This document shows positions 2,125 through 62,486 of a stretch of DNA of 64,000 nt, in pieces. The first letter of the stretch is position 1; the number at the start of each line of letters is the position of its first letter. Below the pieces are notes generated by a model. It was not told the origin of the DNA. It searched no databases and was given only the letters and a program-made list of their open reading frames with translations. The position numbers and the translations under genes were made by a program. Source of the DNA: Bolinopsis microptera (lineage: Eukaryota > Ctenophora > Tentaculata > Lobata > Bolinopsidae); contig NC_087075.1 in assembly GCF_026151205.1 (NCBI RefSeq), positions 4,500,359-4,564,358 on the forward strand, given 5' to 3'.

Positions 2125-2875
2125 CCCCCTTAGCTCACTAAATATTTCTCCTCCTTTTCGGTTTAACTCACTAAATGTTTCTCCTCCTCCTTTCCTCTTA
2201 TTCGGTTTAACTCACTAAATATTTCTCCTCCCTTTTCCTCCTATTTGGTTTAACTCGCTAAATGTTTATCTTCCTTTCCTCCTATTCGGTTTAACTCACT
2301 AAATATTTGTCCTTCTCCGCATTCCACCTGCGGAGCTACAGAAACACACAAACAGCACAATGATCTCAATCCAAACAATTAGACTTATCATCGGAATGCA
2401 CCGCAGACTAATTCGAATGTAGTGGAATTGTTGAAATATGAAAATATCATAGCCCCACTCACCCAGTCAGCAAGGACTCACGTGTGGGCCTCCTGCTACA
2501 TCAGGATGGATTATCGCATACTGTTCATTACTCATACAGAGATGAGTAGTTCGCTTTGCCAAGAGAAAAAGAAAGAGAACCTCCTCATTGTGAGCTTTGC
2601 CAAGAGAAAGAGAAAGAGAACCTCCTCATTGTGAGCTACAACTGAGCTCAGCTGATCATTATCGAGTTATGAATGTTCAAACAATTAGCGCTGAGAGGAC
2701 AGGATGATAAATTTGTACGTGTATAATGATCTTAAAGCTCTTGTCTGCTATGCCGAGCTAGTAGACAACCCAGAGATATACAAATGCACAGAGCTTCGTG
2801 ACCCGGACAATGCAGTATTAGGAGGCGTTTCTTTTTTGCCTGAAAACATTTCTTCTATATCACTCGACTCGATTG

Positions 2876-5070: not shown

Positions 5071-5077
5071 CTATAAC

Positions 5078-5084
5078 TATATAA
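5078..5084 (+). promoter_or_regulatory. TATA box of the secreted-protein gene
   Basis: TATATAA lies 44 bp upstream of the ATG at 5,128, leaving room for a short leader starting near 5,108. The surrounding bases (ACTATAACTATATAACTC) are also the apparent ancestor of the 38-bp minisatellite at 61,687-62,486. Confidence 0.6.
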
Positions 5085-5127
5085 CTCTTCCTCGACTCAG
5101 CACTCTACACTTCTCTACAACTTGGCG

Positions 5128-14080: not shown

Positions 14081-14630
14081 CGACAATCTGTCGTAAAACA
14101 GGGGTTCTAGAAAACCCATTTCCCGATGCTCCGGAAACTTGAAACTTTTTTTGCAGTCGATTTGGTCAACGTCTAGACGCCCTGCAAATTTTCAGATCTC
14201 TAACACAATTTTAACATGGTTTTTAAGGCACCTGAATATGGCGATTTTGGGTTTTTTACCGAATTTCGTATAACATGCTGGCGCGTATTTTGCGCAAATT
14301 TCATAAAACCTTCACATAACTATTTCTTATTCCTGTCATATTTAACATTAAATTAGACTGTTTTGAACATAAATATACCTGCTGAACTACTTTCGATGAG
14401 TCTTAATGCCTGAAAAACAATAAAGGGGTATAATAGTAAAGGGGGTATAAAAGTCAAGGGGGTAAATAGTAAAGGGGGTAAATAGTAAAGGGGTTAAATA
14501 GTAAAAGGGGTAAATAGTAAAGGGGGTAAATAGTAAAGGGGGTAAATAGTAAAGGGGGTAAATAGTAAAGGGGGTAAATAGTATTGTGAATATAAGAGGC
14601 ACGGTCATGCTTGCCAGCATTGTGATAGAT
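14081..14630 (+). mobile_element. repeat B, copy 3, with internal minisatellite
   Basis: Runs from CGACAATCTGTCG to CTTGCCAGCATTGTGAT. The interior 14,425-14,585 is a 17-bp tandem repeat (GGGGGTAAATAGTAAA and GGGTATAATAGTAAA variants). It directly abuts the 3' end of the LINE that follows. Confidence 0.8.
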
Positions 14631-14633
14631 TAG

Positions 14634-16295
14634 TTACCATATATTAGGGTCACCTCGATTTTGGAGGGATAGCAAGTGCTTTTTAAGGTTAGATTTAATA
14701 ATACCTGACGAGGCTGATAAGTCTGAATTTTTGGAAGAACCCGGGATTATTATCCCATCTATATTAGCATCACATATTTCGAATACATAGGGGATGAGAT
14801 CATTCCATATTTTCGTAGAGGTGTACAAAAAGTTCTGTTGGGAGATATCTAACCTCAGTAATGGGACAATCAGACGAAGTTTTTCATTTCTAGGACAGAA
14901 CTTGAAAAGATCTTTAATCGACTGGGGGACATCAAATTTAAGAATTTTGAATAGCTCCATAAATGTATGGTACATGTGCAGATTCTCCAGGTTCATAATT
15001 TTCTGCTCAGTGAATAGCGGTTTAGTGTGTTTAAGACAGTAGTTCTTTTTAGCCATATGTTCGTTATAAGTTCTTGAACGTGCACAGGTTAAGTAGTATT
15101 CTTTATGATCGAAATTGGGAATGTTACCAAATAGCAGTCGTATACATCGTTTTTGAATAGCAAAGATTTTATTCAGCTTATGTTTAGGGATCCCACCCCA
15201 GCAACTTATACAATAGCTAAGATGTGACATACAAAGAGCATTGTATAGTTTCAAATATTCAGATTTGGGAATGAATTTGCAAATTCTCTTAATCGATACA
15301 ATACTGGAGTTCAGCTTTAAAGATAAATGATTAAGATGTGGTTCCCAACATAGCTGTTCGTCTATTGTCACCCCAAGAAATTTTGTACATTGAACTTTTT
15401 CTAGCTTTTTGCCATCTATTGAAATCGTTAGATTCCTGTTAAAGGGCCGTGTTCTAGCACAGGTCTGTATTGCTCTTGACAAACCTGGCTGAAAATGCAT
15501 AAAACAACTTTTCCCTGCATTTATATGTAACTTGTTAGACTCCATATAGTTACTGACTTGTTTCATTACATGATTAGCTTTTTCAAAAGCTTCCTGTGCT
15601 GAACGACCTATCACAAAAATATTTGTATCATCAGCAAACAGGACGAATTCAGCCAAACATGAGGAGCTCACAATATCATTTATATAAATCAGAAATAGTA
15701 GAGGTCCTAACACTGACCCCTGGGGTACACCATACTCAACTGAACACTTGTCCGATTTTTCAGTTTGAAAAGAAGTTACTTGGCTACGGTTTGTTAGATA
15801 GCTAGCAAGAGTTTTTAGTGCAATACCTCTTACTCCATAGTGTTCAAGTTTATGCAGGAGTTTATCGTGCTCAATTGTGTCAAATGCTTTACTTAGATCA
15901 ATAAATATTCCAATTACATGATTTTTCTGTTCAATCTCATTAAGTATTTTATTGACAGAATAGTTTACGGCATGAGATGTTGAGTGTTGTTTTCTAAAAC
16001 CAAATTGTCGATCATAAATCACGTTCATAGCACTGAGGTAATTATATAACCTATTATAAATTATTTTTTCAAGTATTTTGCCAAATATCGGTAATGTAGA
16101 AACAGGTCGATAGTTATCAAGGCATCGTGAGTCTCCTTTTTTATAAATTGGTGTAATAGAGCCCGTTTTAAGCTTGTTTGGAAAGACCCCATTGTCCAAG
16201 AACCAATTAAAGAATCTAGAGATATGACCAGACAGATAATTTACACTCTTTTTCAAGACTTTAACAGAGATATCACTTGCCTTTATCATTATCAT
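14634..16295 (-). CDS. LINE reverse transcriptase (CR1/L2/Jockey-like), 5'-truncated
   Basis: An uninterrupted 553-residue frame starts within the thumb-proximal part of a LINE ORF2: the endonuclease is absent. RT motifs are intact: LDNYRPVSTLPIFGKILEKI, FIDLSKAFDTIEHD, GVPQGSVLGPLLFLIYINDI (split by me for length), and FADDTNIF. The C-terminal part (LSYCISCWGG and following) is typical of CR1/L2-group elements. The stop lies only a few bases from the element's 3' border with repeat B, so the 3' UTR is minimal. The 5' border is near 16,305, as expected for incomplete reverse transcription. It may be the same family as the ORF1/ORF2 fragment at 53.9-57.7 kb, which lacks exactly this part; that is inference. 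Confidence 0.85.
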   Translation of the reverse strand: MIMIKASDISVKVLKKSVNYLSGHISRFFNWFLDNGVFPNKLKTGSITPIYKKGDSRCLDNYRPVSTLPIFGKILEKIIYNRLYNYLSAMNVIYDRQFGFRKQHSTSHAVNYSVNKILNEIEQKNHVIGIFIDLSKAFDTIEHDKLLHKLEHYGVRGIALKTLASYLTNRSQVTSFQTEKSDKCSVEYGVPQGSVLGPLLFLIYINDIVSSSCLAEFVLFADDTNIFVIGRSAQEAFEKANHVMKQVSNYMESNKLHINAGKSCFMHFQPGLSRAIQTCARTRPFNRNLTISIDGKKLEKVQCTKFLGVTIDEQLCWEPHLNHLSLKLNSSIVSIKRICKFIPKSEYLKLYNALCMSHLSYCISCWGGIPKHKLNKIFAIQKRCIRLLFGNIPNFDHKEYYLTCARSRTYNEHMAKKNYCLKHTKPLFTEQKIMNLENLHMYHTFMELFKILKFDVPQSIKDLFKFCPRNEKLRLIVPLLRLDISQQNFLYTSTKIWNDLIPYVFEICDANIDGIIIPGSSKNSDLSASSGIIKSNLKKHLLSLQNRGDPNIW

Positions 16296-25223: not shown

Positions 25224-28200
25224 GTGGATACGTGAACGCTCCACCTCGCATCCAGGAACCTAGTATAAAGTATCTGAGAACGACCCGTAACTTGGAGGAG
25301 GGCATGGTCATTACTGTTGAGCCAGGGGTTTACTTCGGTGATGCTGTAAGTCGCGATGCTTGAACTGCTTTTTCTTCTAGTTCTACCTTATTTATCAATC
25401 AAATCAAATTAAATTCATTTTGTAAATAATGTGTCATATCTTCAGTTAATCGAAGCAGCTTACGCTAATCCTGACCAAGCGAAATATATGAACAAGGAAA
25501 AGATTGAGCCGTATAGGGGCACTGGAGGGGTAAGTAATCACTTTTATAGGGGCACTGGAGGGGCAAGTAATCACTTTTATAGGGGCACTGGAGGGGTAAG
25601 TAATCACTTTTATAGGGGCACTGGAGGGTAAGTAATCACTTTTGTAGGGGCACTGGAGGGGTAAGTAATCACTATTATCTTCTGACCCCTCTGACCTATT
25701 CAAAAAAAGTACCTTCAAGTATCTCAAACGTACAATAGAATACTGATATCTGGATATTATCCGGTTGGAAGAGACAAGGACAAGTGAAACAAGGAAGTTA
25801 GGAGTAAGGGCAAATTTTCGGCGTCAACGCCATCTTCAGGCTAAAATTGTTATAAATGTTAGTATATAATAAATGCTTCTATACTAGTTAAAATGCTAAA
25901 TTAAAATTACACACACTGAATACAGGTTACATCAAATGGTATTGTACATTACATTGAAAATAGTGATGTACACACGTTTTACACTCTGTCCAAGTACATA
26001 ATATCTACTGAACAGCAGGGTCGTGTGCTATTTGTTTAAATTTGTCTTTGAATATGTTGTAAAAGAAATCCCTTAAGCTTCTCGCACTCTTCTTTGTTAT
26101 TGATACTAGGTTTAAATAAATTAATGTAGTAAGCTTCTGTCACTTTACGTTTAATGGTGCTATATAAGTTAATTTCTAAAATATCGAAGGAAATATCTGG
26201 TTCTATGTTATCGTGAAACTCTGAATAATGAGCAGCCAACGCATTATCAGGATAGGTTAAAGGCCTGTTGACTGCTCTTCGATGCTCTGAAAATCTATCG
26301 TGTGCTGTTCTACTCGTTTCCCCTATATATAGCTCTTGACATAATTTACACGTAACTTTGTATATGACACATTTTGGTTTGCAGTCGTGATTTGTTGTGA
26401 TGAGTGGACATATGATACAGTTTGGTATGGTGCAGTGTGGTTTGTCGTGTGGTCGTGATGAACATAAGATCTCTGAGAGTTTCTTACCTGGTGTGAATAT
26501 GAATTTGACCGGTAAGTTGTGTGAGAGGGCAAATTGAGTGACTTCTTTGGAAAATGGCTCGTTGATGAATGGTAGAGTGCATGTTACGTGGTCGGTATCT
26601 TGTATGTTTGATGATGAAGGGTTATGACGTGTTGTAGGTGAGAGAGGGTGAAGTCGTCCTGTTTTGTTTATACGTCGTGGGTCTTGGTAACCGTTGTTGA
26701 CCAACAAGTTGTCTACTATCTTCATGGACTCTTCTTTATACTCTGGTGTTGATGAGCAAAAAGCAGCCGTTTTGTAGAAGTTCTTGATGGTTGCTACTTT
26801 AGTTCCCTCATTGTGGTGGCTGTTGGCGTGCAGTGTGATATTCTTTTTCTGCTTCTTTCTGTAGAATTTGTGGTGTAGTGTTCCCTGTTCGTCGATCTTT
26901 ATCTGGGTGTCGAGGAATGGGGTGAAATCCTGACGGCTTTCCGGATAGTCAATTTCCCATTTGAGCAACTGGTCTGGGTCCTCGTTTGAGATGGACTCCA
27001 CTATCCTCAGAGCTTCTTCTTTGGAGCTGGCTAGACTCCCGGCATCATCCACGTATCTCCGGTAGAATGAGACGTGTAAATCAGTGTAAATCGATCTTCT
27101 CTCGAACATATATACTCGTACTATCGCTCCTATTGGTGATGGTTGGCACCCCATGAAGAGACCAATTTTCTGGAGGTAGAGTCTTGAGTGATATGTAAAG
27201 TATGAGTTGGTGAAGACGAATTCAAGGATCTTGTGGATGTGCGTGAGTGTTAGACCCCAGGTGTCGAGGTCTTCCCAATGTTCTTCGGTGAGTGTAATGA
27301 GGTCTTGAATGCAGCCACTGATGTTGATGTTTGTGTACAGTGCTGTGACGTCAGCTGTGAAGAATGAGAGACCTGAGAGTTGGTTTTTAATTTTGGGAAA
27401 TTAGTAATGGAATTAAAGCGGAATTTAAACGCAAGCTTTTCGGGATGAACAAACACAATCGTTTCCTAGACTATATACATGAACGAATAACATTATTCTA
27501 AGTAAAGTAAAATTGTCGTAGATTTCTGAGAATCATGGGGAAAATTTAAAACAATACTCTCTTAATCATTTACTCACTGACAAAACAACCGAATAGAAAA
27601 AATGTCCATCAAAATACTCAGTTTAACATAAGTGACGCAAGTGTAAAAAGTCAACTCAATGGTCCCGCATCAGCATATTAGATCACCACAAAGAACATTG
27701 GAAGACCCCAAACTGGGTCACTCCCACGCACATCACAAGTACTTGGAACGTCAACTCTACTTTACATTCCCCGTTTCCCCAAAAGGGTTCGGTGCAATCC
27801 ATAAAAAGGGCGTGGTACGAGTATTATGTCGGGAGTTGTTACCTGATTTACACGCCATTTGGAGTCGTATGTGTCGGGTTACCATCCAAGAGAAGTCTGA
27901 AAGGAGTATTGCCCAGATCTTGTCATGGGCGAATTACATAAAGCCTCCGTATTTCCCCTTTGACACTAAAGATCGCTTAAGGTTGAACACTAGACCACTT
28001 CTAGGAAGGTTAAAATTGGACATTCCAGTGAGGCACTGTTCTTCAAAATTTCAAATGTTTTTGCCTCAAAAAGAGTATTAAAGCCTTGAACGATCACTTG
28101 TTGGCACAACACGGTTCCGCCAACGTTCCAGATTCTTTCTGCCTACTCCTCCCTTCATCTCAAAATAAGAGTCCAGCCACGTAAACATCATCTCTAGCAT

Positions 28201-34200: not shown

Positions 34201-37200
34201 ACAAGTTTTCCATAGACCACCGTTTTCGGGTTCCCTGAGAGGGGAACGGGTTTTTGGGACGGGGAAATTTTTATTTCTGGTAACTTTTGAACATCGGGGC
34301 CCAAAAAGTTCAGGGCACTTTTGGCAGACCGGTGAACATATGGGGATGTTTTCGGGGGGCTTTTTTTTCGGGTTGCAAGATTCCCGAGAGATTTCAGTCC
34401 CCGCCCAGAAAAGAACTTACTTATTCAAAGAGATTTAACACATTCGTGAGGGGCCAAATCCCTGATCAGAACCCTTGTACTGAAGCACCCACTTTGGGGT
34501 GTTTTGTGAAATAACGGACACCCCCTTTTTTTGACACGTATTCTATGAAGGAAAAAACGTCCACCTTTTGGTTCATTTTGTGATCCTTTTGTGGGAATGC
34601 CGCCCGGGCCCCCTGGTAATTGGGGTGGGGAAGGGGACGGCGGGGGTAGAAAATTTTTCAGTGTTTTGCTTCACGTTTCCCCGATCTGAGCGTGGGGACG
34701 GGGGATTTTGGGTCACCATGGTCCAGATAGAAAAAAACCTTTATAAGGTTTCAGGGACCATTGGGGTCAGGGATAACCCCTCTTTTTTCGTGGGTATGTT
34801 TGTCCCCCCTCCGGGGGAATTAGTATAACGGGTAACAGGGGTAGGAGAAAAGCTTCAGGGGCGTAATCGGGAAATTTGGCGAAGGAAAAAATTTAAATTT
34901 GGGCTCTTGATAGGCAGTGAAAAGGTTTTTTATCTTTCGCAATGTGTCTTTTGGTTCCAGCAACCAAATTTTAGCAATCCCAAATTTTGAAGAATGATGT
35001 TTTTAGACATCATGCTTGTTCGGCTTGCTGTTGTACTTCCCAGCGCAAAGTCATCATTCAAAGTTACCGGGGGGGTTGCTTTTTTTTTACCTTCTCCCCC
35101 CAACCAGTGTCATCCGCTCCGAGGTTGGTATTTGACTAACCCCTTTCCCATCCCTCTTTGTCGCGTCATCGTCATCGCAACCGTTTTTTTGATAACCGGG
35201 AGGGGTGTGGCGGGGAGCAAGGTGGGTTTTTTCCATTATTTTTGATCTCTGCGAGCCAGAAACTGTTTGAGTCCGGGATCGCTGTCTGCTTTGTGTTTTT
35301 AACCCCTCCCCCGGCGGGGGGGGAGGTGGAGCCCCGGGGGTATTGATCGCGTGACGTGCGGATGGGTTTTTTTGCATGTCACGACATACGGTTTATCGCC
35401 TAAAAAAGTTGGGTTTTAAGTTTTGAGAGGGGAATGGTGCCGCTTGAAAGGGAGCACACTTCTCACATAGCATGTTTTCCAAATTAACAAGTGTAATGTA
35501 AAGGGCCGGTGCTGACAGCTCTGCTCTCCCGGGAAAAAGGGTTAATTTTGCAGGGGAAGTATTTGCAAATTCCCCCCATTGGGGGGTTAGCACAGGGACC
35601 CCGGGCCCCGGGGGCAGAGGAGCTGTTTGGTCTGCGTGGAAATTTTTTACCTTGTCAGAGCTTATTTTTAATTGCTTTTTCAAGCATTAAGCTAGACACG
35701 TCTGATGTTGGGTAATTTTGTTAGCAGCACATATTATTAAATAGCAAAATAGAACGTGTACACACAGGTGGATAACTCAGTGTACAATATTACACAGAAA
35801 GCACTGCACACATGTGTATGGAAAATGCGGAGTGTAACAAGAGCATAAAATGATCTCGAAACTTCCGCCTTACTCATGGTTATTTTGCAAGGACTCAGCT
35901 GCTCATTATCTTGTGTCCCCTTTCTCATTGCTGTAGTCTCCTTGCTGCTGTTGCTGTAGATTAGCTTTTCACATGTTGTTGTGTTTCCAGCTTCACTTGT
36001 CCTCGGGGAGTTGGAAAGTGAGGTTAGTTTGAGAAACAAAGAACAAGGAATTTTACTGGCACTGGGATCACAGGTTTGTAGTAGTGATAGTGGTTCAGCA
36101 GCAGGGGGGTTAAATGATGGGGGAAGCTTACACTGGTGAGCCAGACTCGGGTGGCTTTTAGGAGAGGAGAGTAGGACCGCCCTTACGGGCGGTACCACCG
36201 AGCCTGGGTAAGGATACGTAGAGAAGGAGGAATAAAGGAGTTGGGGAAAGTAAGAAAGAGGGACTTACTCTCTGATAGGAGGCCCAGGTGGTTTTCAGGA
36301 AGGATTGGGACCTGGGGGCAAGCCCCAGGTACCACCGGGCCCGGGTCTTGCACGTTGTGTTGGAAGGTGATCTTTGTTCTGGAACTTTCTGCACTTTTTG
36401 AAGAGCGGTGAAATTGTAACAAAAGAAACGTGCGCGTGTATATATATTGATGTGACATGTTTTGAAGCTCTTCTAGGTGAGTGTGTATATTGCTCAGGTG
36501 AGATGGAACATGATTAAGCAGAGGAGATAGAATAGATTTAACAATCCAAGCAAGCTTCTCAGAAGGGGAATTTATACAAGACACAATTGGACGTATTTTA
36601 CAATTAGAAATAATATCTACATCTGAAACTAAGACATTATATTATTTCTAATTGTAAAATACGTCCAATTGTGTCTTGTATAAATTCCCCTTCTGAGAAG
36701 CTTGCTTGGATTGTTAAATCTATTCTATCTCCTCTGCTTAATCATGTTCCATCTCACCTGAGCAATATACACACTCACCTAGAAGAGCTTCAAAACATGT
36801 CACATCAACAACTCTCAGGTCTCTCATTCTTCACAGCTGACGTCACAGCACTGTACACAAACATCAACATCAGTGGCTGCATTCAAGACCTCATTACACT
36901 CACCGAAGAACATTGGGAAGACCTCGACACCTGGGGTCTAACACTCACGCACATCCACAAGATCCTTGAATTCGTCTTCACCAACTCATACTTTACATAT
37001 CACTCAAGACTCTACCTCCAGAAAATTGGTCTCTTCATGGGGTGCCAACCATCACCAATAGGAGCGATAGTACGAGTATATATGTTCGAGAGAAGATCGA
37101 TTTACACTGATTTACACGTCTCATTCTACCGGAGATACGTGGATGATGCCGGGAGTCTAGCCAGCTCCAAAGAAGAAGCTCTGAGGATAGTGGAGTCCAT

Positions 37201-38678
37201 CTCAAACGAGGACCCAGACCAGTTGCTCAAATGGGAAATTGACTATCCGGAAAGCCGTCAGGATTTCACCCCATTCCTCGACACCCAGATAAAGATCGAC
37301 GAACAGGGAACACTACACCACAAATTCTACAGAAAGAAGCAGAAAAAGAATATCACACTGCACGCCAACAGCCACCACAATGAGGGAACTAAAGTAGCAA
37401 CCATCAAGAACTTCTACAAAACGGCTGCTTTTTGCTCATCAACACCAGAGTATAAAGAAGAGTCCATGAAGATAGTAGACAACTTGTTGGTCAACAACGG
37501 TTACCAAGACCCACGACGTATAAACAAAACAGGACGACTTCACCCTCTCTCACCTACAACACGTCATAACCCTTCATCATCAAACATACAAGATACCGAC
37601 CACGTAACATGCACTCTACCATTCATCAACGAGCCATTTTCCAAAGAAGTCACTCAATTTGCCCTCTCACACAACTTACCGGTCAAATTCATATTCACAC
37701 CAGGTAAGAAACTCTCAGAGATCTTATGTTCATCACGACCACACGACAAACCACACTGCACCATACCAAACTGTATCATATGTCCACTCATCACAACAAA
37801 TCACGACTGCAAACCAAAATGTGTCATATACAAAGTTACGTGTAAATTATGTCAAGAGCTATATATAGGGGAAACGAGTAGAACAGCACACGATAGATTT
37901 TCAGAGCATCGAAGAGCAGTCAACAGGCCTTTAACCTATCCTGATAATGCGTTGGCTGCTCATTATTCAGAGTTTCACGATAACATAGAACCAGATATTT
38001 CCTTCGATATTTTAGAAATTAACTTATATAGCACCATTAAACGTAAAGTGACAGAAGCTTACTACATTAATTTATTTAAACCTAGTATCAATAACAAAGA
38101 AGAGTGCGAGAAGCTTAAGGGATTTCTTTTACAACATATTCAAAGACAAATTTAAACAAATAGCACACGACCCTGCTGTTCAGTAGATATTATGTACTTG
38201 GACAGAGTGTAAAACGTGTGTACATCACTATTTTCAATGTAATGTACAATACCATTTGATGTAACCTGTATTCAGTGTGTGTAATTTTAATTTAGCATTT
38301 TAACTAGTATAGAAGCATTTATTATATACTAACATTTATAACAATTTTAGCCTGAAGATGGCGTTGACGCCGAAAATTTGCCCTTACTCCTAACTTCCTT
38401 GTTTCACTTGTCCTTGTCTCTTCCAACCGGATAATATCCAGATATCAGTATTTCAATCATGAGACTAATAAACAGCGAACTACTCCGTTATTTGGTACAA
38501 TAGAATATAAAATGATAAAACGATAATATAAAATGATAATAACAATTTAACGTGTTCAACGTTTAAGGTACGAATAGAAGACGGAGTAGCAGTAACGGCT
38601 GACGGAACTGAACTGCTCTCCCACAACATACCCCGGACAGTAGAGGAAATAGAGGAGTTCATGAACAGGTCAAATTAG
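25224..38678 (+). CDS. PEPD: Xaa-Pro dipeptidase (prolidase), last three exons
   Basis: Exons 25,224-25,345, 25,446-25,529 and 38,568-38,678 join in phase with GT-AG introns. They encode the C-terminal part of the M24B metallopeptidase that cleaves X-Pro and X-Hyp dipeptides in the cytosol. Diagnostic blocks are LEEGMVITVEPGVYFGD, whose Glu is a metal ligand, RGTGGVRIEDGVAVT, whose Glu is the second late metal ligand, and the C-terminal PRTVEEIEEFM, all in the order of animal prolidases. The product ends after NRSN, slightly shorter than mammalian PEPD. Upstream exons (roughly the first three quarters of the protein) were not found; a LINE lies immediately 5' of 25,224. The last intron is 13,038 bp and full of Penelope-like elements. 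The donor of the middle exon lies in a 33-bp tandem repeat. Confidence 0.85.
25512..25672 (+). repeat. 33-bp tandem repeat spanning a PEPD 5' splice site, five units
   Basis: Units of TATAGGGGCACTGGAGGGG plus TAAGTAATCACTTT start at about 25,512, 25,545, 25,578, 25,611 and 25,643. Each contains the end of the exon and its donor. Units 1, 3 and 5 have GGGGTAAGT, unit 2 has GGGGCAAGT (GC donor), unit 4 lacks one G. The period is 11 codons, so units 1-4 remain an open frame (repeating VSNHFYRGTGG). Confidence 0.95.
25741..27381 (-). mobile_element. Penelope-like element, minus-strand copy
   Basis: The 1.64 kb is the near-perfect reverse complement of 36,809-38,451. It starts abruptly at 27,381, where similarity to the plus copy stops within CTCTCAGGTCTCTCATTC. 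It ends with a shared 3' trailer containing a GGCG/CGCC hairpin near 25,826. It lies inside the last PEPD intron. Confidence 0.9.
26036..27154 (-). CDS. Penelope-like RT (C-terminal part) plus GIY-YIG endonuclease
   Basis: The frame is open for 372 residues and is identical to the corresponding part of the plus-strand copy. RT: MGCQPSPIGAIV and FYRRYVDDAG with catalytic Asp-Asp. Endonuclease: a CIICPL/CKPKCVIYKVTCKLC cysteine pair, then LYIGETSRTAHDRFSEHRRA, the GIY-YIG core with its conserved Arg and His. The N-terminal RT motifs are present upstream to about 27,380 but in another frame. Confidence 0.85.
   Translation of the reverse strand: MGCQPSPIGAIVRVYMFERRSIYTDLHVSFYRRYVDDAGSLASSKEEALRIVESISNEDPDQLLKWEIDYPESRQDFTPFLDTQIKIDEQGTLHHKFYRKKQKKNITLHANSHHNEGTKVATIKNFYKTAAFCSSTPEYKEESMKIVDNLLVNNGYQDPRRINKTGRLHPLSPTTRHNPSSSNIQDTDHVTCTLPFINEPFSKEVTQFALSHNLPVKFIFTPGKKLSEILCSSRPHDKPHCTIPNCIICPLITTNHDCKPKCVIYKVTCKLCQELYIGETSRTAHDRFSEHRRAVNRPLTYPDNALAAHYSEFHDNIEPDISFDILEINLYSTIKRKVTEAYYINLFKPSINNKEECEKLKGFLLQHIQRQI
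27382..35700. other. degraded or low-accuracy sequence derived from retroelements
   Basis: 27,660-28,900 follows the plus-strand Penelope-like copy (36,880-38,450) block by block but with dense substitutions and indels. Examples are AAGAACATTGGAAGACC near 27,690, TTTCACGATAACATAGAA near 28,470 and TCTCTTCCAACCGG near 28,845. 28,900-31,300 holds a minus-strand LINE endonuclease and linker broken the same way. 31,300-35,700 is unusually rich in G4-G7, C and T homopolymers and has no coherent frames. The pattern is that of uncorrected long-read consensus rather than natural decay; natural decay cannot be excluded. Confidence 0.7.
29889..31300 (-). pseudogene. broken LINE endonuclease fragment inside the low-accuracy block
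   Basis: Frames at 30,849-31,184 and 29,889-30,260 (both minus strand) read like a LINE endonuclease and its linker: AAILGDMNARTG (catalytic Asp/Asn), KYFNLDKDLNLINEYDSPAHG, and a KKEYRAQTRARKGAY linker in another frame. Several frame changes occur between them, including the SVDY/SDHKP region near 30,530-30,720. It is a different family from the LINE at 22.4-25.2 kb. Confidence 0.55.
36143..36346. ncRNA. two tandem copies of a possible structured RNA motif
   Basis: Unit 1 (36,143-36,208) and unit 2 (36,281-36,346) share GGTGG...ACCACC arms, an unpaired purine bulge next to them, a variable outer stem (CTC/GAG in unit 1, GGCCC/GGGCC in unit 2) and a variable inner hairpin (ACCGCCC/GGGCGGT with TTAC loop; ACCTGGGG/CCCCAGGT with GCAAG loop). 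Stem bases change in pairs while the junction text is kept. No known family was recognised and the transcribed strand is unknown. Confidence 0.35.
36448..36807. repeat. 169-bp near-perfect palindrome at the Penelope-like element head
   Basis: 36,448-36,616 is the reverse complement of 36,639-36,807, with a 22-bp spacer. Each arm encodes the same RT segment (IRPIVSCINSPSEKLAW and onward) pointing outward. This is a head-to-head junction of two Penelope-like copies, the left one being cut to this fragment. Confidence 0.95.
36639..38451 (+). mobile_element. Penelope-like element, plus-strand copy, 5'-truncated at the palindrome
   Basis: It carries an intact RT to GIY-YIG frame and the same trailer as the minus copy. 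It starts at the palindrome centre and ends at 38,451 next to the final PEPD exon. Together with the minus copy it forms a 1.64-kb inverted pair about 9.4 kb apart. Confidence 0.9.
36671..38155 (+). CDS. Penelope-like reverse transcriptase plus GIY-YIG endonuclease
   Basis: The frame gives 494 residues from the GTG at 36,671; it is open a little further 5' (NCKIRPIV) until a stop at the palindrome spacer. RT motifs: IRPIVSCINSPSEKLAW, FFTADVTALYTNI (motif A), GCQPSPIGAIV, RRYVDDAGSL (motif C). A linker leads to the cysteine pairs and LYIGETSRTAHDRFSEHRR of the GIY-YIG nuclease. A full Penelope RT needs about 200 more N-terminal residues, which are missing. The order RT then GIY-YIG is that of Penelope/Neptune-type elements. 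Confidence 0.88.
   Translation: MSCINSPSEKLAWIVKSILSPLLNHVPSHLSNIHTHLEELQNMSHQQLSGLSFFTADVTALYTNINISGCIQDLITLTEEHWEDLDTWGLTLTHIHKILEFVFTNSYFTYHSRLYLQKIGLFMGCQPSPIGAIVRVYMFERRSIYTDLHVSFYRRYVDDAGSLASSKEEALRIVESISNEDPDQLLKWEIDYPESRQDFTPFLDTQIKIDEQGTLHHKFYRKKQKKNITLHANSHHNEGTKVATIKNFYKTAAFCSSTPEYKEESMKIVDNLLVNNGYQDPRRINKTGRLHPLSPTTRHNPSSSNIQDTDHVTCTLPFINEPFSKEVTQFALSHNLPVKFIFTPGKKLSEILCSSRPHDKPHCTIPNCIICPLITTNHDCKPKCVIYKVTCKLCQELYIGETSRTAHDRFSEHRRAVNRPLTYPDNALAAHYSEFHDNIEPDISFDILEINLYSTIKRKVTEAYYINLFKPSINNKEECEKLKGFLLQHIQRQI
38460..38567 (+). other. end of the last PEPD intron
   Basis: AT-rich sequence ending in an acceptor (TTCAACGTTTAAG) before GTACGAATAGAAGACG. The pyrimidine tract is weak. 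Confidence 0.5.
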
Positions 38679-53754: not shown

Positions 53755-53911
53755 TGGTATGCCACTTTTATTTGAAAAGAAAACTTTTGATAATGGTCCT
53801 TAAATTATTCCACCCTTGATGCAGGGACAAGTGTTTTTTTTACTAGTTGGGGCCTCACAACCCCCCATACCCGAGTGCTTCCCATTCCATTTTTGAGAGT
53901 TCGACTTCTTT
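53755..53911. other. short homopolymer-rich junction
   Basis: T8, C6 and similar runs between the Penelope relic and the LINE; possibly low accuracy. It marks where the LINE ORF2 stops abruptly. Confidence 0.4.
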
Positions 53912-53981
53912 TTACCTAACATCCTTTAATTATATCTTTTTTAGATTTACCCCTGAGTTCGTTGATCAATTCCCAGGTTTT

Positions 53982-54262
53982 TTAAATATTTCCTTTAGCA
54001 AGTTCAAATTTTTTCCCATAGTGGGCTTTTTTCGCAGATTTTATAGCTTTGTTTAAGATAGAACGATACTCCTTATACTTAAGATATAAAGTTTCCTCAC
54101 CTAATGGGTTGATTTTGGTACACGAAGCCTTCCATCGCTTGTAGTGAAAGCCTTTAGTAAACACAGATTTAATTAACGCAGAAGTGATCCATGGATTCAT
54201 CAATCTATTGCGTTTTGATTGAAAACCAGCAGTACAGTCCACTTTGAAATTCAGTTCGATTT
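53982..54262 (-). pseudogene. continuation of LINE ORF2 linker after the frameshift, truncated
   Basis: Reads KIELNFKVDCTAGFQSKRNR, MNPWITSALIKSV and KEYRSILNKAIKSAKKAHYG, a typical endonuclease-to-RT linker of CR1/L2-type LINEs. Another slip lies near 53,985 before KKTWELINELRG. The sequence stops near 53,912, before the RT. Confidence 0.75.
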
Positions 54263-55443
54263 TTTTCGACAGTTTCGACAAATTTTTCAAAACCTTCCTC
54301 ATCATACGAAAAGTTCGATTGGTAGATATCCTTTCCAATATTATTGAGGAAACTTTCTATATTAGACTCACAGTAATCATACTTAGGTTTAAGTTTGGCA
54401 GTATTTGAACTCTCTTTAATATTACACGATATGAAACAGAAGATTGGGTTATGATGGGAAATCTTGGATTCAAGAATTCCAGATCCTAAGACACGCTCAG
54501 TAGAGTTCACTAAAATATTATCAATTAAGCTTTCATTGCAACCCGGCTTGGCATGGGTGGCAATCGATATCAAAGGGATTAAATTGTTACTGTAGATAGT
54601 TTGTTCAAATTCAGCTATGTTTCGTCCCTGGGCCAAAAGATCAACATTGAAGTCACCTGTCAAGGCTACATTATTAGACGGTAGAAATTTCATCAACACA
54701 TCAAGCTCAGCAAGTGCATCTTGAATATCACCACTAGGGGGCCTGTAAACAACACCAGCAATCTGTGGAACCTCTGTGTTAGTGATCTCAACGAAAAGTG
54801 TTTCAAGATTGTCAGAGCATTTACATAACTTTTCGATTCGGCTGTATTGGTACTGATTGTCAATATATATACCAAGGCCACTACCTTTCTTTTTCCCATC
54901 AGTTTTGGAGTTGTACTCACTGCTGTAACCATCAATTTTGTATGGATCCTTATTTTCCTCATCAATGTTTGTTTCAACTAGCGCAATAACTGCAAATTTC
55001 TCATCATATTGACACATATCAGTAATAAAGCTGTCAAAGTTAGATGCGTTCCCATCAATGTTGTTAAACACAATAGATATAAACGGCTTGTTATGGTTAA
55101 GTATGTTTTTTGACAGCCGGTTGAAATTTGTCATGTTGTAATACCTACAGTCTTTTAGAATGTTTGAAATAGTCTCCATATCCTCGTCTCTTTCTACAGT
55201 GTTGGGATCATATTTGTCATAAATAATTGAGTTAAAAGGATTGTACCTTTGGGATTTGAAGGCGTAACACTGACTGCAGTGCCACATTTGTTTAACATGA
55301 TCAAATTTAAAACTCTGTTCAGAACATTTGGCATGATATATTGTATCGCAACTCTCACATATTATGATTTTATGATGGCTTAGTACATTGCTATCACAAC
55401 CTGGACATCTCTCTCTTGTAATATTGAAGTTTATTGAGGTCAT
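54205..55443 (-). CDS. LINE ORF2, PHD finger plus apurinic-type endonuclease
   Basis: Residues about 14-59 form a second PHD-like finger (CPGCDSN, ICESCDTIYHAKC, WHCSQC). The endonuclease follows: ISIVFNNIDGNASNFDSF (first strand, Asn), LVETNID (catalytic Glu), RPPSGDIQDAL, LTGDFNVDLL (Asp/Asn), ESLIDNILVN and SHHNPIFCF (terminal His). The frame runs into a stop after NRTEFQSG because of a one-base slip in a T7 run (A7 on the coding strand) near 54,262. The true continuation is the frame 54,338-53,982. Confidence 0.8.
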   Translation of the reverse strand: MTSINFNITRERCPGCDSNVLSHHKIIICESCDTIYHAKCSEQSFKFDHVKQMWHCSQCYAFKSQRYNPFNSIIYDKYDPNTVERDEDMETISNILKDCRYYNMTNFNRLSKNILNHNKPFISIVFNNIDGNASNFDSFITDMCQYDEKFAVIALVETNIDEENKDPYKIDGYSSEYNSKTDGKKKGSGLGIYIDNQYQYSRIEKLCKCSDNLETLFVEITNTEVPQIAGVVYRPPSGDIQDALAELDVLMKFLPSNNVALTGDFNVDLLAQGRNIAEFEQTIYSNNLIPLISIATHAKPGCNESLIDNILVNSTERVLGSGILESKISHHNPIFCFISCNIKESSNTAKLKPKYDYCESNIESFLNNIGKDIYQSNFSYDEEGFEKFVETVEKNRTEFQSGLYCWFSIKTQ

Positions 55444-55464: not shown

Positions 55465-57612
55465 CTACGGACTACCCCTACTTAGGGCACTACTATAGTC
55501 ACCATTTCCACCTTTAAATCTTTCCGTGGACTGACTTCCACCACGTTGTACAATACACCGTTTTATGTTCATACCATATATTTTCAGGCCTTCTCTCCCG
55601 AGATGAACAACATCATTGACCAATGGTGTGCCATCACGTGAGAATCTACCATACTTAGAGGGGATACATCCGTTAACAGAACCTAGTACAGAGTTATCTA
55701 TAATAAACATGTTTTTCCTATTATAAACCATGTCGACAATTAAACTGTTTAACTCCCCTATACGTGAGTTAACAAACTGTGATTTGGTGGGCAAGAGTAA
55801 ACTAATATGAACTTTACTATTAGGATAAAATTGCTGAATTTCACAACATTTCTTCTTAAGCTTAGCAATAAGTGTTCTAGTGGATGGTCTGTTGGAATCA
55901 TCTCGAATATCATTGATTCCCGTATGTATAACAATGTTCCGAAAAGGGTCTATGTCTTTGGGAGCAGGAATATCGTCGATTTTAGCAGCCCACTTTCGCT
56001 TACCGGGAACCCATTTTCCTAGAGTTCCAACATCTTTACCAAATTTAATGTACTTAGTGTTTGAGTCTCCAATTAACACTGTGCTATTTTTGTAGAAAGG
56101 CGCAATATGCCTAAAGGTAAAGCTGTACCTCACAGAAGTTTTCTCTTCAGATTCCTCGCCATCTTCTTCATTAGCGAGGGGTTCAATACCATGATTCCAG
56201 ATTTCCTGGGACATTCTGGACATCACGTATACACTTCCATCTTTGAGCTTTAAGGACTTTTCAGTCGACTTATGTGTGAACTTTATTGTGCGTTCTTCAC
56301 CAAGGGACACAGTGACTATTATCGATTCTGGGTCAATAAGAACCTCATTGTCGCAGTGTTGGGGGATATAGCTACTGTTGCCTGTATATCTTGTAACAAG
56401 GCAAGAGTTCAGCCAGCTCTTCCTATTGGGGAGAGAGGGACGCACACAGTCCAAAAGATCTTGTATCTCCGGTGGAGTTTCCTTTGCCTGATGATAGGCT
56501 CCTGTGTACCAGTATCCATGTTCACCAAAGTAGACAACATCCCTGCTGCCATCAACCGAAGAAAAATCCGCACTATTGTCCTCCAGCAGCTTTATAAGTT
56601 TGCTGTGAAGCTCAACAGGCACTATATCTTCCTGATAATTTAGATAAGGGTCACATGCAGGGCCTTCAGGAATTTGAGATGCAGCAAAGTGAGGAGAAGT
56701 AGTGTTGGGGGTCATAAGAATAGAGGCATTGTAAGGTAGTTCATCTTCATCAAAGTTCTGTGTGGACGTTGAGGGACATACATGATCATTGATCTTTTCC
56801 AATTGCACTTTGATCTGGGTCATCAGCTTGTCAACATGATCGAAAGTACTGCTGTTAGTCGGAGGTTGCTCTGTCATAGGTATATTTTTGAGAGAATCCT
56901 TCAGGCCATCAATCTCCTGTTTGAGAGAGTTGCTGGTTGTCTCAAGAGCTGAGCCACTCTCCTTTACTTTCGTAAGTACACCCTTGATAGAGGCTATGTC
57001 TTCAGTGATATCTTCAATTCCAGTTACTAATCTTTCTGTTCTTTTGGAGTGTTCTTTGAAACTGTCCTCCTTGAGTATGAGGTGTTTGATATGCTCGTTG
57101 AAGAACTCTATGGTTGTTGTACTTTCTTTGAGTTCCTCATTACACTTTGATATCTTAGAAATATTGCTAAAGTATTCTGTTAAGGCTTTGGATTTTTCCT
57201 CCTCCTTCAATCTTCTTGTGTAAGGAAAGATAAAGCAGTCCGGGCACTTCCAGGAAGTGCTGAGCTTCTTTAGAGAAGTTGCTGTGAGGCCAGCAAGGTT
57301 AACACAGTTAGAATGGAAGGTCTGCTTACAATTAACACATAAGATTGCAGGGTTCTTTGACTCTACAAAGCAGGGACACTTAGAGAGTAGCGTGCCTGGG
57401 ATCGATGCTGGTTCGTTGTTCTCTACATCTACAAAGTCTCCATCAGATGTTAGATCTGCATCTGGCTCTGTGTTCCTATTATGTATTCTGCTAGTGACTT
57501 TTCGGCTTAAAGCTGGGCTCGAAATAGGAGTGGATCCAGCTGACTTGCACCCTCGAGACGTGGAATTAAAGAGGTCCGATCTCCTGTCGAGTTTCTTGTC
57601 GGTCTTTTTCAT
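55465..57612 (-). CDS. LINE ORF1 protein: PHD finger, coiled coil, AlkB-like dioxygenase, SGNH esterase
   Basis: An intact 715-residue frame. Residues 79-126: PHD-type zinc finger (Cys79, 81, 92, 95, His100, Cys103, 123, 126). Residues about 135-280: charged, helical, coiled-coil-like. Residues about 330-503: 2-oxoglutarate/Fe(II) oxygenase of the AlkB type with all key residues: His419-x-Asp421 (IPQHCDNE), distal His474 (IWNHGIEP), Arg495 and Arg501 (RYSFTFR, the RxxxxxR signature). Residues about 510-685: SGNH/GDSL hydrolase with GDS (515-517), HTGIND (563-568) and Asp667/His670 (NDVVHLG). PHD and esterase in ORF1 are known for CR1/L2-group LINEs. The inserted AlkB domain, which in cells reverses alkyl lesions in DNA or RNA, is unusual. 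A role in protecting element RNA or cDNA is inference. Confidence 0.85.
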   Translation of the reverse strand: MKKTDKKLDRRSDLFNSTSRGCKSAGSTPISSPALSRKVTSRIHNRNTEPDADLTSDGDFVDVENNEPASIPGTLLSKCPCFVESKNPAILCVNCKQTFHSNCVNLAGLTATSLKKLSTSWKCPDCFIFPYTRRLKEEEKSKALTEYFSNISKISKCNEELKESTTTIEFFNEHIKHLILKEDSFKEHSKRTERLVTGIEDITEDIASIKGVLTKVKESGSALETTSNSLKQEIDGLKDSLKNIPMTEQPPTNSSTFDHVDKLMTQIKVQLEKINDHVCPSTSTQNFDEDELPYNASILMTPNTTSPHFAASQIPEGPACDPYLNYQEDIVPVELHSKLIKLLEDNSADFSSVDGSRDVVYFGEHGYWYTGAYHQAKETPPEIQDLLDCVRPSLPNRKSWLNSCLVTRYTGNSSYIPQHCDNEVLIDPESIIVTVSLGEERTIKFTHKSTEKSLKLKDGSVYVMSRMSQEIWNHGIEPLANEEDGEESEEKTSVRYSFTFRHIAPFYKNSTVLIGDSNTKYIKFGKDVGTLGKWVPGKRKWAAKIDDIPAPKDIDPFRNIVIHTGINDIRDDSNRPSTRTLIAKLKKKCCEIQQFYPNSKVHISLLLPTKSQFVNSRIGELNSLIVDMVYNRKNMFIIDNSVLGSVNGCIPSKYGRFSRDGTPLVNDVVHLGREGLKIYGMNIKRCIVQRGGSQSTERFKGGNGDYSSALSRGSP

Positions 57613-57712
57613 GATGATAATGGATGCGGAGTACAGGGGTGAGCGGAGGGGGCCAGGGTCAGACCCATCGAACCAGACCAGTAAACCTGAAACAAGCTAG
57701 GCGGCAGTGAGA

Positions 57713-59060
57713 TGATATGTATAGACGCTTTGGCAGTCAATTATAGCCTACATTTAAGTGTCCATAGATTCAAAAGTATAAAAGATACAGTCATTTCGAA
57801 GCACAGGTTTTAAAGATAATTGTTTATACTTTAGTTTACACTATATTGAAAAATAATTTATCGTCATAATCATCACTTGATGACGTCATCAATTTAAGTG
57901 TTTTAAAACTTGATTTTTGACAAAATAACAACTTTTCAAATCGATTTTACAACATTAAAAAGTAATTTTATTCAAAATCTGAGGACACTTTCACCTTAGA
58001 TAATTGTTCAAGCATTCTGAAAATCTACCGGAAAAGTTTCCTACCTTAATCCTTCATAAAGATACTCGCTATTGAAGTTAGTGCTTTTTTGAAGAATAAT
58101 TTTATAAAAACACAAAAGTTGTGAATTAGTATTCTCTGGTGTTGGGCCATCTGTTGGGTTGTGGAGCTCAATTTTGCTTCTGAAAGGTCTAAATTGTGTT
58201 ATAGGCCAGTTTTAAAGTTGAAAATCGAAAAGTTGCACACGTGGGGACACGCCCAAATTGATTTAAAATAGCTTATATCACTGAAAATTGTTATTTTCAC
58301 GATTTTTATCAACTTTGGAGTCCCGTTGTGATCCAAGTTCTTTTTGAAATCTTCTGAAACTTTGCATGCTTATCAAACTATATATTAAATACCACTATGC
58401 TAAATTTTACGGTGATTCAATATTGTATGCGCACGCAACGTCCGCTCAAAGTTTGCACGTGCGAAAGGTGAGAATTTTGATCATTCGTGATTTCGAATAT
58501 ATTCTGCTTTCCCACGATATTTAAATGCCATTATATATATGAATTAAATGCCAACTTGAATGAGTAAAAAGTGCCATATTCAGTCTGTTATCGACAGATA
58601 TACCTACCTAAACACAAGGAAATGTTTTCAAAGGTAAAATTTCGAAATCGTTGAAATTACCTCCTTATTAATGAAGTTTCGACTTTGTAAATTATCCTGA
58701 CATTATAATCAAAAAGAGATGATATTTGACCAAAACCCATAATCATGGGTAGAGTGAACCGCTGCCAGTGTCTCTGATCTTTTCCAAACAAAAGGAAATG
58801 ATATTAATTTGAGGAACCGTCCGCAAATGCAAATTGATACCGAGAATGAAATCGGTCGCTCGCTTTTCCCATTCATTCACGGCTCACGAATTGTAATAAA
58901 GCTTATTGAATGGGAAAAGCGAGCGACCGATTTCATTCTCGGTATCAATTTGCATTTGCGGACGGTTCTCTAAATTAATATCATTTCCTTTTGTTTGGAA
59001 AAGATCAGAGACACTGGCAGCGGTTCACTCTACCCATGATTATGGGTTTTGGTCAAATAA
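57713..59060 (-). mobile_element. repeat A, copy 3 (inverted)
   Basis: The tail (57,713-58,715) and hairpin head (arms 58,716-58,875 and 58,907-59,059) are in reverse orientation to copies 1 and 2. The loop is only about 31 bp. The CTTGATGACGTCATCAA palindrome is at 57,876-57,892. Arm sequence differs from copies 1 and 2 (for example GTCTCTGATCTTTTCC) but agrees between its own two arms. Confidence 0.8.
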
Positions 59061-59315: not shown

Positions 59316-59924
59316 AGTTGGTGTTGGTGTTGGTGTTGGTGTTGGTGTTGGTGTTGGTGTTGGTGTTGGTGTTGGTGTTGGTGTTGGTGTTGGTGTTGGT
59401 GTTGGTGTTGGTGTTGGTGTTGGTGTTGGTGTTGGTGTTGGTGTTGGTGTTGGTGTTGGTGTTGGTGTTGGTGTTGGTGTTGGTGTTGGTGTTGGTGTTG
59501 GTGTTGGTGTTGGTGTTGGTGTTGGTGTTGGTGTTGGTGTTGGTGTTGGTGTTGGTGTTGGTGTTGGTGTTGGTGTTGGTGTTGGTGTTGGTGTTGGTGT
59601 TGGTGTTGGTGTTGGTGTTGGTGTTGGTGTTGGTGTTGGTGTTGGTGTTGGTGTTGGTGTTGGTGTTGGTGTTGGTGTTGGTGTTGGTGTTGGTGTTGGT
59701 GTTGGTGTTGGTGTTGGTGTTGGTGTTGGTGTTGGTGTTGGTGTTGGTGTTGGTGTTGGTGTTGGTGTTGGTGTTGGTGTTGGTGTTGGTGTTGGTGTTG
59801 GTGTTGGTGTTGGTGTTGGTGTTGGTGTTGGTGTTGGTGTTGGTGTTGGTGTTGGTGTTGGTGTTGGTGTTGGTGTTGGTGTTGGTGTTGGTGTTGGTGT
59901 TGGTGTTGGTGTTGGTGTTGGTGT
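59316..59924. repeat. (GTGTTG)n microsatellite, about 609 bp
   Basis: About 101 perfect hexamers. It ends exactly where the right-hand segmental duplicate begins (ATTTATCTTCC at 59,925). Confidence 0.98.
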
Positions 59925-61700
59925 ATTTATCTTCCTTTCCTCCTATTCGGTTTAACTCACTAAATATTTGTCCTGCTCCGCATTCCACCTGCGGAGCTAC
60001 AGAAACACACAAACAGCACAATGATCGCAATCCAAACAATTAGACTTATCATCGGAATGCACCGCAGACTAATTCGAATGTAGTGGAATTGTTGAAATAT
60101 GAAAATATCATAGCCCCACTCACCCAGTCAGCAAGGACTCACGTGTGGGCCTCCTGCTACATCAGGATGGATTATCGCATACTGTTCATTACTCATACAG
60201 AGATGAGTAGTTCGCTTTGCCAAGAGGAAGAGAAAGAGAACCTCCTCATTGTGAGCTTTGCCAAGAGAAAGAGAAAGAGAACCTCCTCATTGTGAGCTTG
60301 CCAAGAGAAAAAGAAAGTGAAACTCTACATTATGAGCTACAACTGAGCTCAGCTGATCATTATCGAGTTATGAATGTTCAAACAATTAGCGCTGAGAGGA
60401 CAGGATGATAAATTTGTACGTGTATAATGATTTTAAAGCTTTGACGTGGTATGGTTAAGCCTTAAGGTCGAAGTTTGGGTTACGGATAAAGTTGTGGCTA
60501 TAACCCTAACTTAACAATAGATTTAATACTTACAAAAAATGTTGCTTAATATGCTATGGGCGAAATACCAAAAGGTGGAATATTTGATCTTCGATCTTGG
60601 CCGTAATTTAATGACTGCTTACCCTATTAGATCAGATCACAATTATATATCCTTGAAAACTAACTTTGTTAACCTTCTCAGCCATAAAAAAAACGCATTT
60701 CTCTTACAATTGACTATTGAGATGGGCAGTTGCAGTATTGCAGCTAGCTAAAGATATCAGTTTCTCTTTCACTTTGCGTACATGCCTGTTTATTTAATCA
60801 CGTTATGCCAGACCCATATTTTACAGGGTATTAGGCGTCTGCACGTGAGTTTATCCGGTCTGACAAATGAGCTATAGCATTCCAATAATTCTACTGCAAA
60901 TATTAAGATTTACATTCTGGGAATGAGAAATGTATTGAGATCATTATAGTCCTACATCCTTTTTATTTTAAATACAGAAACAATGACCAAGAGTTTTAGG
61001 AGAAATATTTAGTGATGAGTTAATCCTTCAAATAATTTGAAGTATTACTACGCGGGCCACGGGGGTTTGAATTAAGGGAACAACATTTGAATAATTGGCC
61101 TGGATAATAAAATGGAAATTCGATTGTTTGGGGTTTATATGGTTAAGATATGGGTTATGGTTAGGGTTTTGATTAATTGTGCGGTAGTGATATGGTAATG
61201 GTTAGGGTTAGAGTTAGTTGTGCGGAAATATCATTGATAGTAAGTGGACAAATGGTACACTTCATTTTCTCTTTGGAATAGTTAAGATATCAGTTACTCT
61301 GTAAGCCAGATTTCGGCCATGTTAGAACACCACTTTTTAGACCCAATTTGCACATAGCTACTGTATAAGTGTATAGAAATAACAGCTCATACAATACACC
61401 CCGGCCCCTCCCCCACCCCCAAGGCTGGCTGACGTAATGTAAGAACAATCTCTGACTAAAGTTTGTCTTTCTCTATCACTTGAATAACGTACTAAGAACC
61501 CTCACTATTAACTAGAGTTTCTCTTTCTGTTTCTCTTAAATAACGAGGCATTATTATATGTTGTACTTGTAGAGAAAGAACCTGCACTATTCCATGATGC
61601 TTCGTGTAATAGAGCGACTATAACCGCTGAACACCTATACTTTCTTAACTCAGAGGCTAATAGCTTTATAAACGTAAGTTTACACCGACCTGAACTATAA
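59925..61700. repeat. right copy of the segmental duplication
   Basis: Same orientation as 2,265-5,085, lacking the 1.07 kb at 2,742-3,810. After TTTACACCGACC (61,681-61,690) it does not continue into the secreted-protein gene but into the 38-bp minisatellite. Confidence 0.9.
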
Positions 61701-62486
61701 CTCTATAACTCCAACTCTAACCCTGACCTGAACTATAACTCTATAACTCCAACTCTAACCCTGACCTGAACTATAACTCTATAACTCCAACTCTAACCCT
61801 GACCTGAACTATAACTCTATAACTCCAACTCTAACCCTGACCTGAACTATAACTCTATAACTCCAACTCTAACCCTGACCTGAACTATAACTCTATAACT
61901 CCAACTCTAACCCTGACCTGAACTATAACTCTATAACTCCAACTCTAACCCTGACCTGAACTATAACTCTATAACTCCAACTCTAACCCTGACCTGAACT
62001 ATAACTCTATAACTCCAACTCTAACCCTGACCTGAACTATAACTCTATAACTCCAACTCTAACCCTGACCTGAACTATAACTCTATAACTCCAACTCTAA
62101 CCCTGACCCGAACTATAACTCTATAACTCCAACTCTAACCCTGACCTAAACTCTAACCCCAACTCTAACCCTGACCTGAACTATAACTCTATAACTCCAA
62201 CTCTAACCCTGACCTGAACTATAACTCTATAACTCCAACTCTAACCCTGACCTGAACTATAACTCTATAACTCCAACTCTAACCCTGACCTGAACTATAA
62301 CTATATAACTCCAACTCTAACCCTGACCTGAACTATAACTATATAACTCCAACTCTAACCCTGACCTGAACTATAACTCTATAACTCCAACTCTAACCCT
62401 GACCTAAACTCTAACTCTATAACTCCAACTCTAACCCTGACCTAAACTCTAACCCCAACTCTAACCCTGACCTGAACTATAACCCC
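61687..62486 (+). repeat. 38-bp minisatellite (TGAACTATAACTCTATAACT units), about 21 copies
   Basis: Unit: CTGAACTATAACTCTATAAC followed by TCCAACTCTAACCCTGAC. Some units have ACTATATAACTCC (near 62,300 and 62,340). Late units are shorter variants with CTAACCCC. It includes telomere-like TAACCCT. Two further 80-bp blocks of the same units sit between G-rich arrays (62,772-62,852 and 63,431-63,511). Confidence 0.95.

Follow-up and report, generated by a model that had tools for sequence, protein, structure and literature searches.

The ORF1 proteins of LINEs are poorly understood, and those that have been described bear RNA-binding, PHD or esterase modules. Metcalfe & Casane sorted 448 elements by their ORF1 into RRM, CCHC, PHD, transposase 22 and esterase groups and, in the accessible part of their paper, listed PHD fingers for many ORF1s of the CR1/L2 group and for some ORF2s, where they lie at the probable start (PMC4120745). 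Table 1 of that paper, which covers the 448 elements, has no AlkB among its ORF1 domains, no subgroup in it combines PHD and esterase, and the words 'AlkB' and 'oxygenase' do not occur in the accessible text. A survey of gastropod LINEs, in its accessible part, mentions no esterase, PHD or oxygenase (PMC11203168). Type IV (esterase) ORF1 proteins such as that of zebrafish ZfL2-1 have a coiled coil and an SGNH domain with the Ser of GDS, a Gly, an Asn and Asp..His (accessible parts of PMC3905857 and PMC4120745). The ZfL2-1 esterase was described by Schneider et al. as having a triad of D279, H282 and S143 and the oxyanion residues N195 and G165 (accessible part of PMC3905857). In LINEs of this type ORF1 is followed by an ORF2 with endonuclease and reverse transcriptase (RT).

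AlkB domains have been found in other RNA-replicating parasites. The orchid Phalaenopsis, from which the case was reported, has Ty3/Gypsy elements with a 2-ODD/AlkB ORF whose cofactor residues are conserved; the orchid element is of the LTR kind, the AlkB is a separate ORF of ALKBH5-type, and the protein demethylates m6A in vitro (accessible part of PMC9289625). In plant RNA viruses, mainly Flexiviridae, the AlkB domain lies in a polyprotein, is thought to repair viral RNA and is said to have been integrated relatively recently (accessible part of PMC544882).

The window, by which we mean the whole 64,000-nucleotide stretch of DNA analysed, contains a LINE ORF1 which resembles the type IV proteins but in which an AlkB domain precedes the esterase. 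Compared with the orchid Gypsy elements, this family is non-LTR, has its AlkB within ORF1, is ALKBH2/3-like by profile and is diverse (relatives share 29-85% identity with the window ORF1). In contrast to the viral domains, the LINE AlkB has been retained with ORF2 across this diversity. Human ALKBH2 and ALKBH3 are not part of a mobile element; aligned by structure, they showed 19-24% identity to the LINE domain, in which the Asn ahead of Arg-Tyr is mostly replaced by Thr. The initial annotation knew of no described LINE with AlkB in ORF1, and no earlier report of AlkB in a LINE was found by title or abstract start among the matches listed from the open-access literature, a scope that leaves out Repbase and most subscription literature. 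LINE ORF1s and retroelement-borne AlkB are both known; within the scope of that search their combination is new, and the AlkB subtype is probably a different one.

Organisation of ORF1 and of the element

The initial annotation had described an unbroken 715-aa frame at 55465..57612 without naming its strand. Both the coordinates and the frame were correct (Table 1): the frame is on the minus strand and has no internal stop; a plus-strand reading from the first base of the interval was riddled with stops. The description as a whole, of a LINE ORF1 in which an AlkB domain has PHD before it and SGNH after it, was confirmed, and many copies with conserved catalytic residues were found; the interpretation placed on it was partly supported.

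Pfam-A analysis of the window ORF1 revealed 2OG-FeII_Oxy_2 (PF13532) at residues 365-501 (69 bits, with the cut-off at 31.2; E 8.5e-19), so the AlkB profile match that had been predicted was found far over the cut-off. The catalytic residues His419-x-Asp421, His474, Arg495 and Arg501 were at the positions originally given, and both the AlphaFold2 model and the structure search recovered a double-stranded beta-helix fold. The facial triad, RxxxxxR, profile score and fold all placed the domain in the AlkB family.

The upstream PHD finger had the C4HC3 zinc-ligand pattern and a Pfam PHD match (residues 84-126) of 22.4 bits, slightly under the cut-off of 24. The long helices which follow it in the AlphaFold2 model presumably form a coiled coil. 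The downstream esterase had also been called intact, and the GDSN, GIN and D..H motifs were all in place; its Pfam match was weak (Lipase_GDSL_2, 12.7 bits against a cut-off of 32.9, E 0.18) and an SGNH fold of residues 506-690 was supported by the AlphaFold2 model and structure search. Residues of the ZfL2-1 kind were conserved in the same order in the SGNH domain of the window family. The ZfL2-1 esterase itself (4c1b) gave no phmmer match at E<=10 and was not among the best 50 rows of the structure search, an absence which excludes nothing.

Table 1. Features of the LINE family in the window.
Feature	Position	Strand	Basis
Intact ORF1 of 715 aa with PHD, coiled coil, AlkB and SGNH	55465..57612	-	frame list, Pfam, AlphaFold2 model
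PHD finger of ORF1, residues 79-127, CxC-Cx2C-Hx2C-Cx2C	57232..57378	-	pattern in sequence, Pfam
Coiled-coil region of ORF1 (predicted), residues 137-278	56779..57204	-	long helices in AlphaFold2 model
AlkB-type 2OG-Fe(II) dioxygenase domain, residues 319-505	56098..56658	-	Pfam, alignment, sequence profile, AlphaFold2 model, structure search
AlkB residues: Fe ligands H419, D421, H474; 2OG arginines R495, R501			
SGNH esterase domain, residues 506-690	55543..56097	-	motif alignment, AlphaFold2 model, structure search
SGNH motifs: GDSN 515-518, G537, GIN 565-567, D667..H670			
ORF2 start, 412-aa frame: PHD finger 55267-55407, apurinic-type endonuclease ~54469-55020	54205..55443	-	frames, Pfam, protein search
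ORF2 continuation in another frame, with in-frame stop; homology to compared relatives ends here	53880..54272	-	comparison with relatives
Presumed 5' UTR of the LINE	57613..57720	-	5' end inferred from bordering repeat
Second copy of this LINE family, truncated at the 5' end: ORF2 RT and C-terminus, 553-aa frame	14637..16283	-	93.6% identical to P0147

The gap between the ORF1 stop and the ORF2 start (55443) is 21 nucleotides. Two Pfam matches of the window ORF2 were below cut-off (PHD, 21.2 bits against 24; Exo_endo_phos, 23.4 bits against 24.5); the endonuclease match was above it in the ORF2 relatives P0078 and P0125. As a PHD-like finger opens ORF2 as well, the element has one in each of its two proteins, and a PHD at the probable ORF2 start is described for L2 subgroup 5 (accessible part of PMC4120745). 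No RT was found past ~53880, and the ORF1-bearing copy of the window is without one. Because its ORF2 carries a frameshift and has lost the RT, this copy is incapable of autonomous movement, though its ORF1 is open.

A protein search with the ORF2 start found 412 relatives (120 listed), most of which have no known ORF1 here. RT was present in all four that were scanned, three of them of ~1150 aa. The first 187 residues of P0147 showed 94.1% identity to the window ORF2, and the same protein was 93.6% identical to the RT frame at 16283-14637, in the truncated copy. An ORF1 followed by an ORF2 with apurinic-type endonuclease and RT, as in LINEs, was thus found, with the RT taken from relatives and lacking in the window copy. 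A CR1/L2-like affiliation (Jockey superfamily) is suggested, from architecture only.

At its presumed 5' end the LINE borders on one copy (57721-58877) of a 1.16-kb repeat, which is present in three copies that are 85% identical (the others at 7511-8674 and 9074-10237), and a palindrome is located beside this repeat at 58723-59059. The truncated copy is followed on its 3' side by a 16-bp tandem repeat (14421-14583) that may be the 3' tail repeat of the element.

Relatives, conservation and linkage to ORF2

A protein search with residues 300-520 of the window ORF1 revealed 77 proteins at E<=1e-3, with 38-86% identity, every one of which had PF13532. As the query was the AlkB region, these matches show many copies, not AlkB in every related LINE; any members of the group that lack the domain would have escaped it. 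At DNA level, searches of viral contigs and of genome contigs for related loci confirmed no relative. Multiple copies, some of them 5'-truncated, are found in LINEs, and here the P0001 and P0147 clusters contained 41 and 97 member sequences respectively and a truncated copy was found in the window. With its frameshifted ORF2 and missing RT, the window copy is broken, as a chance fusion or an assembly artefact in one copy might be. This explanation was ruled out by the 77 relatives that share the domain, among which were the P0001 cluster and two Mnemiopsis leidyi proteins (61% identical over the searched region), and it retains a negligible probability; the concern that the domain might be present in this copy only was not borne out. 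One further sequence, P0205, which comes from a MAG and bears the record name 'alpha-ketoglutarate-dependent dioxygenase AlkB, partial [Moritella sp.]', is a piece of LINE ORF1 with AlkB and SGNH, and is probably eukaryotic contamination of a bacterial bin.

A Pfam scan of the family (75 of the 78 proteins, three being omitted for size) found PF13532 at E<=0.01 in 75/75. Alignment of the window ORF1 with the 77 relatives showed that the facial triad (HxD...H: H419, D421 and H474), the Glu of HxDxE (E423) and the first 2OG arginine of RxxxxxR (R495) were invariant in 78/78 proteins. The second 2OG arginine, R501, was kept in 77/78, the exception being P0068, which has Gln. As the tree of the AlkB domain (78 rows) had a length of 32.9 substitutions per site over which the catalytic residues were unchanged, the comparison points to strong purifying selection on them, judged at protein level. 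At that level the relaxed selection that would have told against the initial annotation was not seen.

The auxiliary Asn-x-Tyr pair, which stabilises 2OG and does not define the AlkB family, was mostly incomplete. Tyr409 was kept in 78/78 proteins; position 407, two residues N-terminal of it, was Thr in 67/78, Ser in 6/78 and Asn in only 5/78. In ALKBH5 this position is occupied by the 2OG-stabilising Asn193 (accessible part of PMC9289625). Thr407 in place of Asn may alter 2OG affinity or change the reaction, and its presence in 67/78 members would also fit a domain that is no longer an enzyme and serves the RNP as a binder of nucleic acid or as a structural part. Esterase-containing ORF1s are said to be without structural RNA-binding domains (accessible part of PMC3905857), so a binder module would be useful to them. 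A pure binder, however, need not retain Fe ligands and 2OG arginines, and the residues concerned were kept in 78/78 proteins (77/78 for R501) over the whole length of the tree, which makes the loss of enzymatic function rather improbable.

The other parts of ORF1 were conserved to differing degrees. Mean pairwise identity was 49% for AlkB, 51% for SGNH, 47% for PHD and 26% for the coiled coil, the last two means being taken over the members that have those parts; for the domain trees, rows covering <60% of a domain were dropped, which kept 39 PHD, 48 coiled-coil, 78 AlkB and 78 SGNH sequences. D516, S517, G537 and N567 of the SGNH domain were present in 78/78 proteins, and D667 and H670 in 77/78 (a gap in P0025). 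The four PHD ligand columns C92, C95, H100 and C103 were all present in 39/78 proteins, and all 39 belonged to the 43 members of at least 650 aa. In the Pfam scan PF00628 was found in 22/75 members, PF16866 in 23/75 and Lipase_GDSL_2 (E<=0.01) in 15/75; one reason for these low counts for PHD and Lipase_GDSL_2 is that roughly half of the proteins are without the N-terminal part.

The AlkB-bearing ORF1 was associated with ORF2. Comparison of the 77 ORF1 matches with the 120 listed ORF2 matches revealed 10 pairs with a longest contig of equal size; in a control with the sizes shifted by 1-60 bases in either direction, the mean number of matches was 0.98 and the maximum 5. Judged by hand, 8/10 pairs were size-compatible; the other two (3969 and 2424) were too short for both ORFs and were dropped. 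ORF1 and ORF2 distances for the eight pairs and the window were correlated (Mantel r 0.885; 9/20000 permutations as high), a result which depends largely on four close relatives. Additionally, Mnemiopsis P0260 is one predicted protein that runs from ORF1 into ORF2 sequence (by eye, against P0080), as would a copy with an internal deletion.

Subtype and origin of the AlkB domain

A sequence profile built from 11 diverse LINE AlkB segments was searched against solved structure chains. The nearest were human ALKBH2 (9e-18) and ALKBH3 (2e-15), followed by ALKBH8 (4e-10), E. coli AlkB (4e-6) and 'Uncharacterized protein P8A3.02c' (3e-5); the 34 sequences at E<=1 included no ALKBH5 or FTO chain. The profile alignment showed HxDxE to be common to the LINE AlkB and ALKBH2, and we take the Glu after HxD to be a mark of ALKBH2/3. 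An ALKBH2/3-like placement is suggested by these scores, by the Z values of the structure search and by a small tree of hand-picked sequences that includes a single ALKBH2 fragment. The likeness to plant RNA-virus AlkB noted in the initial annotation did not prove specific, as the profile-nearest solved structures were these two human proteins.

This placement bears on whether the domain might be an m6A eraser, which would strip host-written m6A from the element RNA and so escape RNA surveillance. The same role has been proposed for the orchid Gypsy elements, but the orchid protein nests in ALKBH5 (accessible part of PMC9289625), unlike the profile of the LINE domain, which favours ALKBH2/3 and found neither ALKBH5 nor FTO. 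Nor need m6A erasure benefit a LINE, since human L1 retrotransposition is aided by METTL3 and suppressed by ALKBH5 (accessible part of PMC7873242). On both counts this explanation is the weaker, and we consider it unlikely.

Structure search with the model returned ALKBH2 bound to dsDNA among its top matches. This would suit an enzyme that acts on DNA and, guided by the PHD fingers, clears 6mA or alkyl lesions from the insertion site, from cDNA or from silenced copies. PHD fingers of other proteins read chromatin, and PHD-like fingers are present in both ORF1 and ORF2. ALKBH3, solved with ssDNA, scored equally, however, and action on DNA of this kind has a low probability. A match of the predicted fold says nothing on substrate, which counts against the role proposed below: ALKBH5 and FTO trailed the best structural matches by only ~4 Z units.

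In a tree with 13 other sequences, the LINE AlkB domains formed one clade (80/80, support 0.917). The 13 were hand-picked (12 from 63 matches and the ALKBH2 fragment), and P0201 and P0204, likewise from the 63, were entered as LINE since their sequence continues into the SGNH part. The AlkB was probably captured once and then descended with the element, on the evidence of this tree, which shows the LINE domains clustering and not where the domain came from.

Motif inspection of 21 of the 63 matches identified eight stand-alone AlkB proteins of ~200-235 aa (P0234, P0235, P0239, P0243, P0245, P0247, P0249 and P0250), which share NSCL-x-x-[KR]Y with the LINE domain (NSCLINKY in the former, NSCL..[RK]Y in the latter). 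These, the nearest stand-alone proteins among those inspected, were without the Glu after HxD and formed a separate clade (support 0.986), which tells against a giant-virus-like origin. A scan of viral contigs with the stand-alone proteins confirmed none. In the viral structure search, AlkB proteins of giant viruses and of plant viruses were both among the best 50 rows, at low identity, and a plant-virus origin of the LINE AlkB was not supported.

Proposed role, and other repeats of the window

On balance we lean towards the reading that a CR1/L2-like LINE ORF1 acquired an ALKBH2/3-like AlkB domain and kept its catalytic residues, with the predicted role of demethylating template RNA or cDNA. 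In the model we propose, in which RNA coating, activity, substrate, timing and benefit to the element are all inferred, ORF1p multimers held by the coiled coil would coat the RNA of the element. With Fe(II), O2 and 2-oxoglutarate, the AlkB domain would strip template RNA or newly made cDNA of Watson-Crick-face methyls (m1A, m3C). Attachment of the particle to chromatin may be the task of the PHD finger, and lipids may be the substrate of the esterase, a role that has been suggested for ZfL2-1.

Reverse transcription is described as stopping at m1A, and prior treatment with AlkB as acting on m1A, m3C, m1G and m2,2G (accessible part of PMC11417395). Since methyls of this kind block reverse transcriptases, the AlkB domain would give the element a means of cleaning its own template; in the laboratory, AlkB already serves against methyl barriers to reverse transcription. 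The fuller version of this proposal, of a diverse LINE family with a predicted ALKBH2/3-type demethylase in ORF1 which removes RT-blocking methyls so that full-length cDNA is made, is put forward more tentatively, as a possibility that falls somewhat short of probable. An AlkB in a LINE ORF1 suggests that methylation of the template RNA may hinder reverse transcription in cells, and an AlkB kept catalytically intact through deep divergence would tie nucleic-acid methylation, be it lesions or host marks, to LINE fitness.

Other elements and repeats were also present in the window. Two frames in opposite orientation, 26036-27154 (-) and 36671-38155 (+), have the same C-terminal protein sequence, ending GIY-YIG-like; we take them to be Penelope-like elements in an inverted arrangement. 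The frame at 36671-38155 (+) gave no Pfam match. A 974-aa RT frame at 10445-13369 (+), with Cys/His motifs after the RT, presumably belongs to an R2/CRE-type LINE. A 1.28-kb duplication (98% identical) was found at 3809-5087 and 60441-61711, and arrays of TTGGTG-type hexamers were located near both of its copies, at 2874-3811 and 59317-59924.
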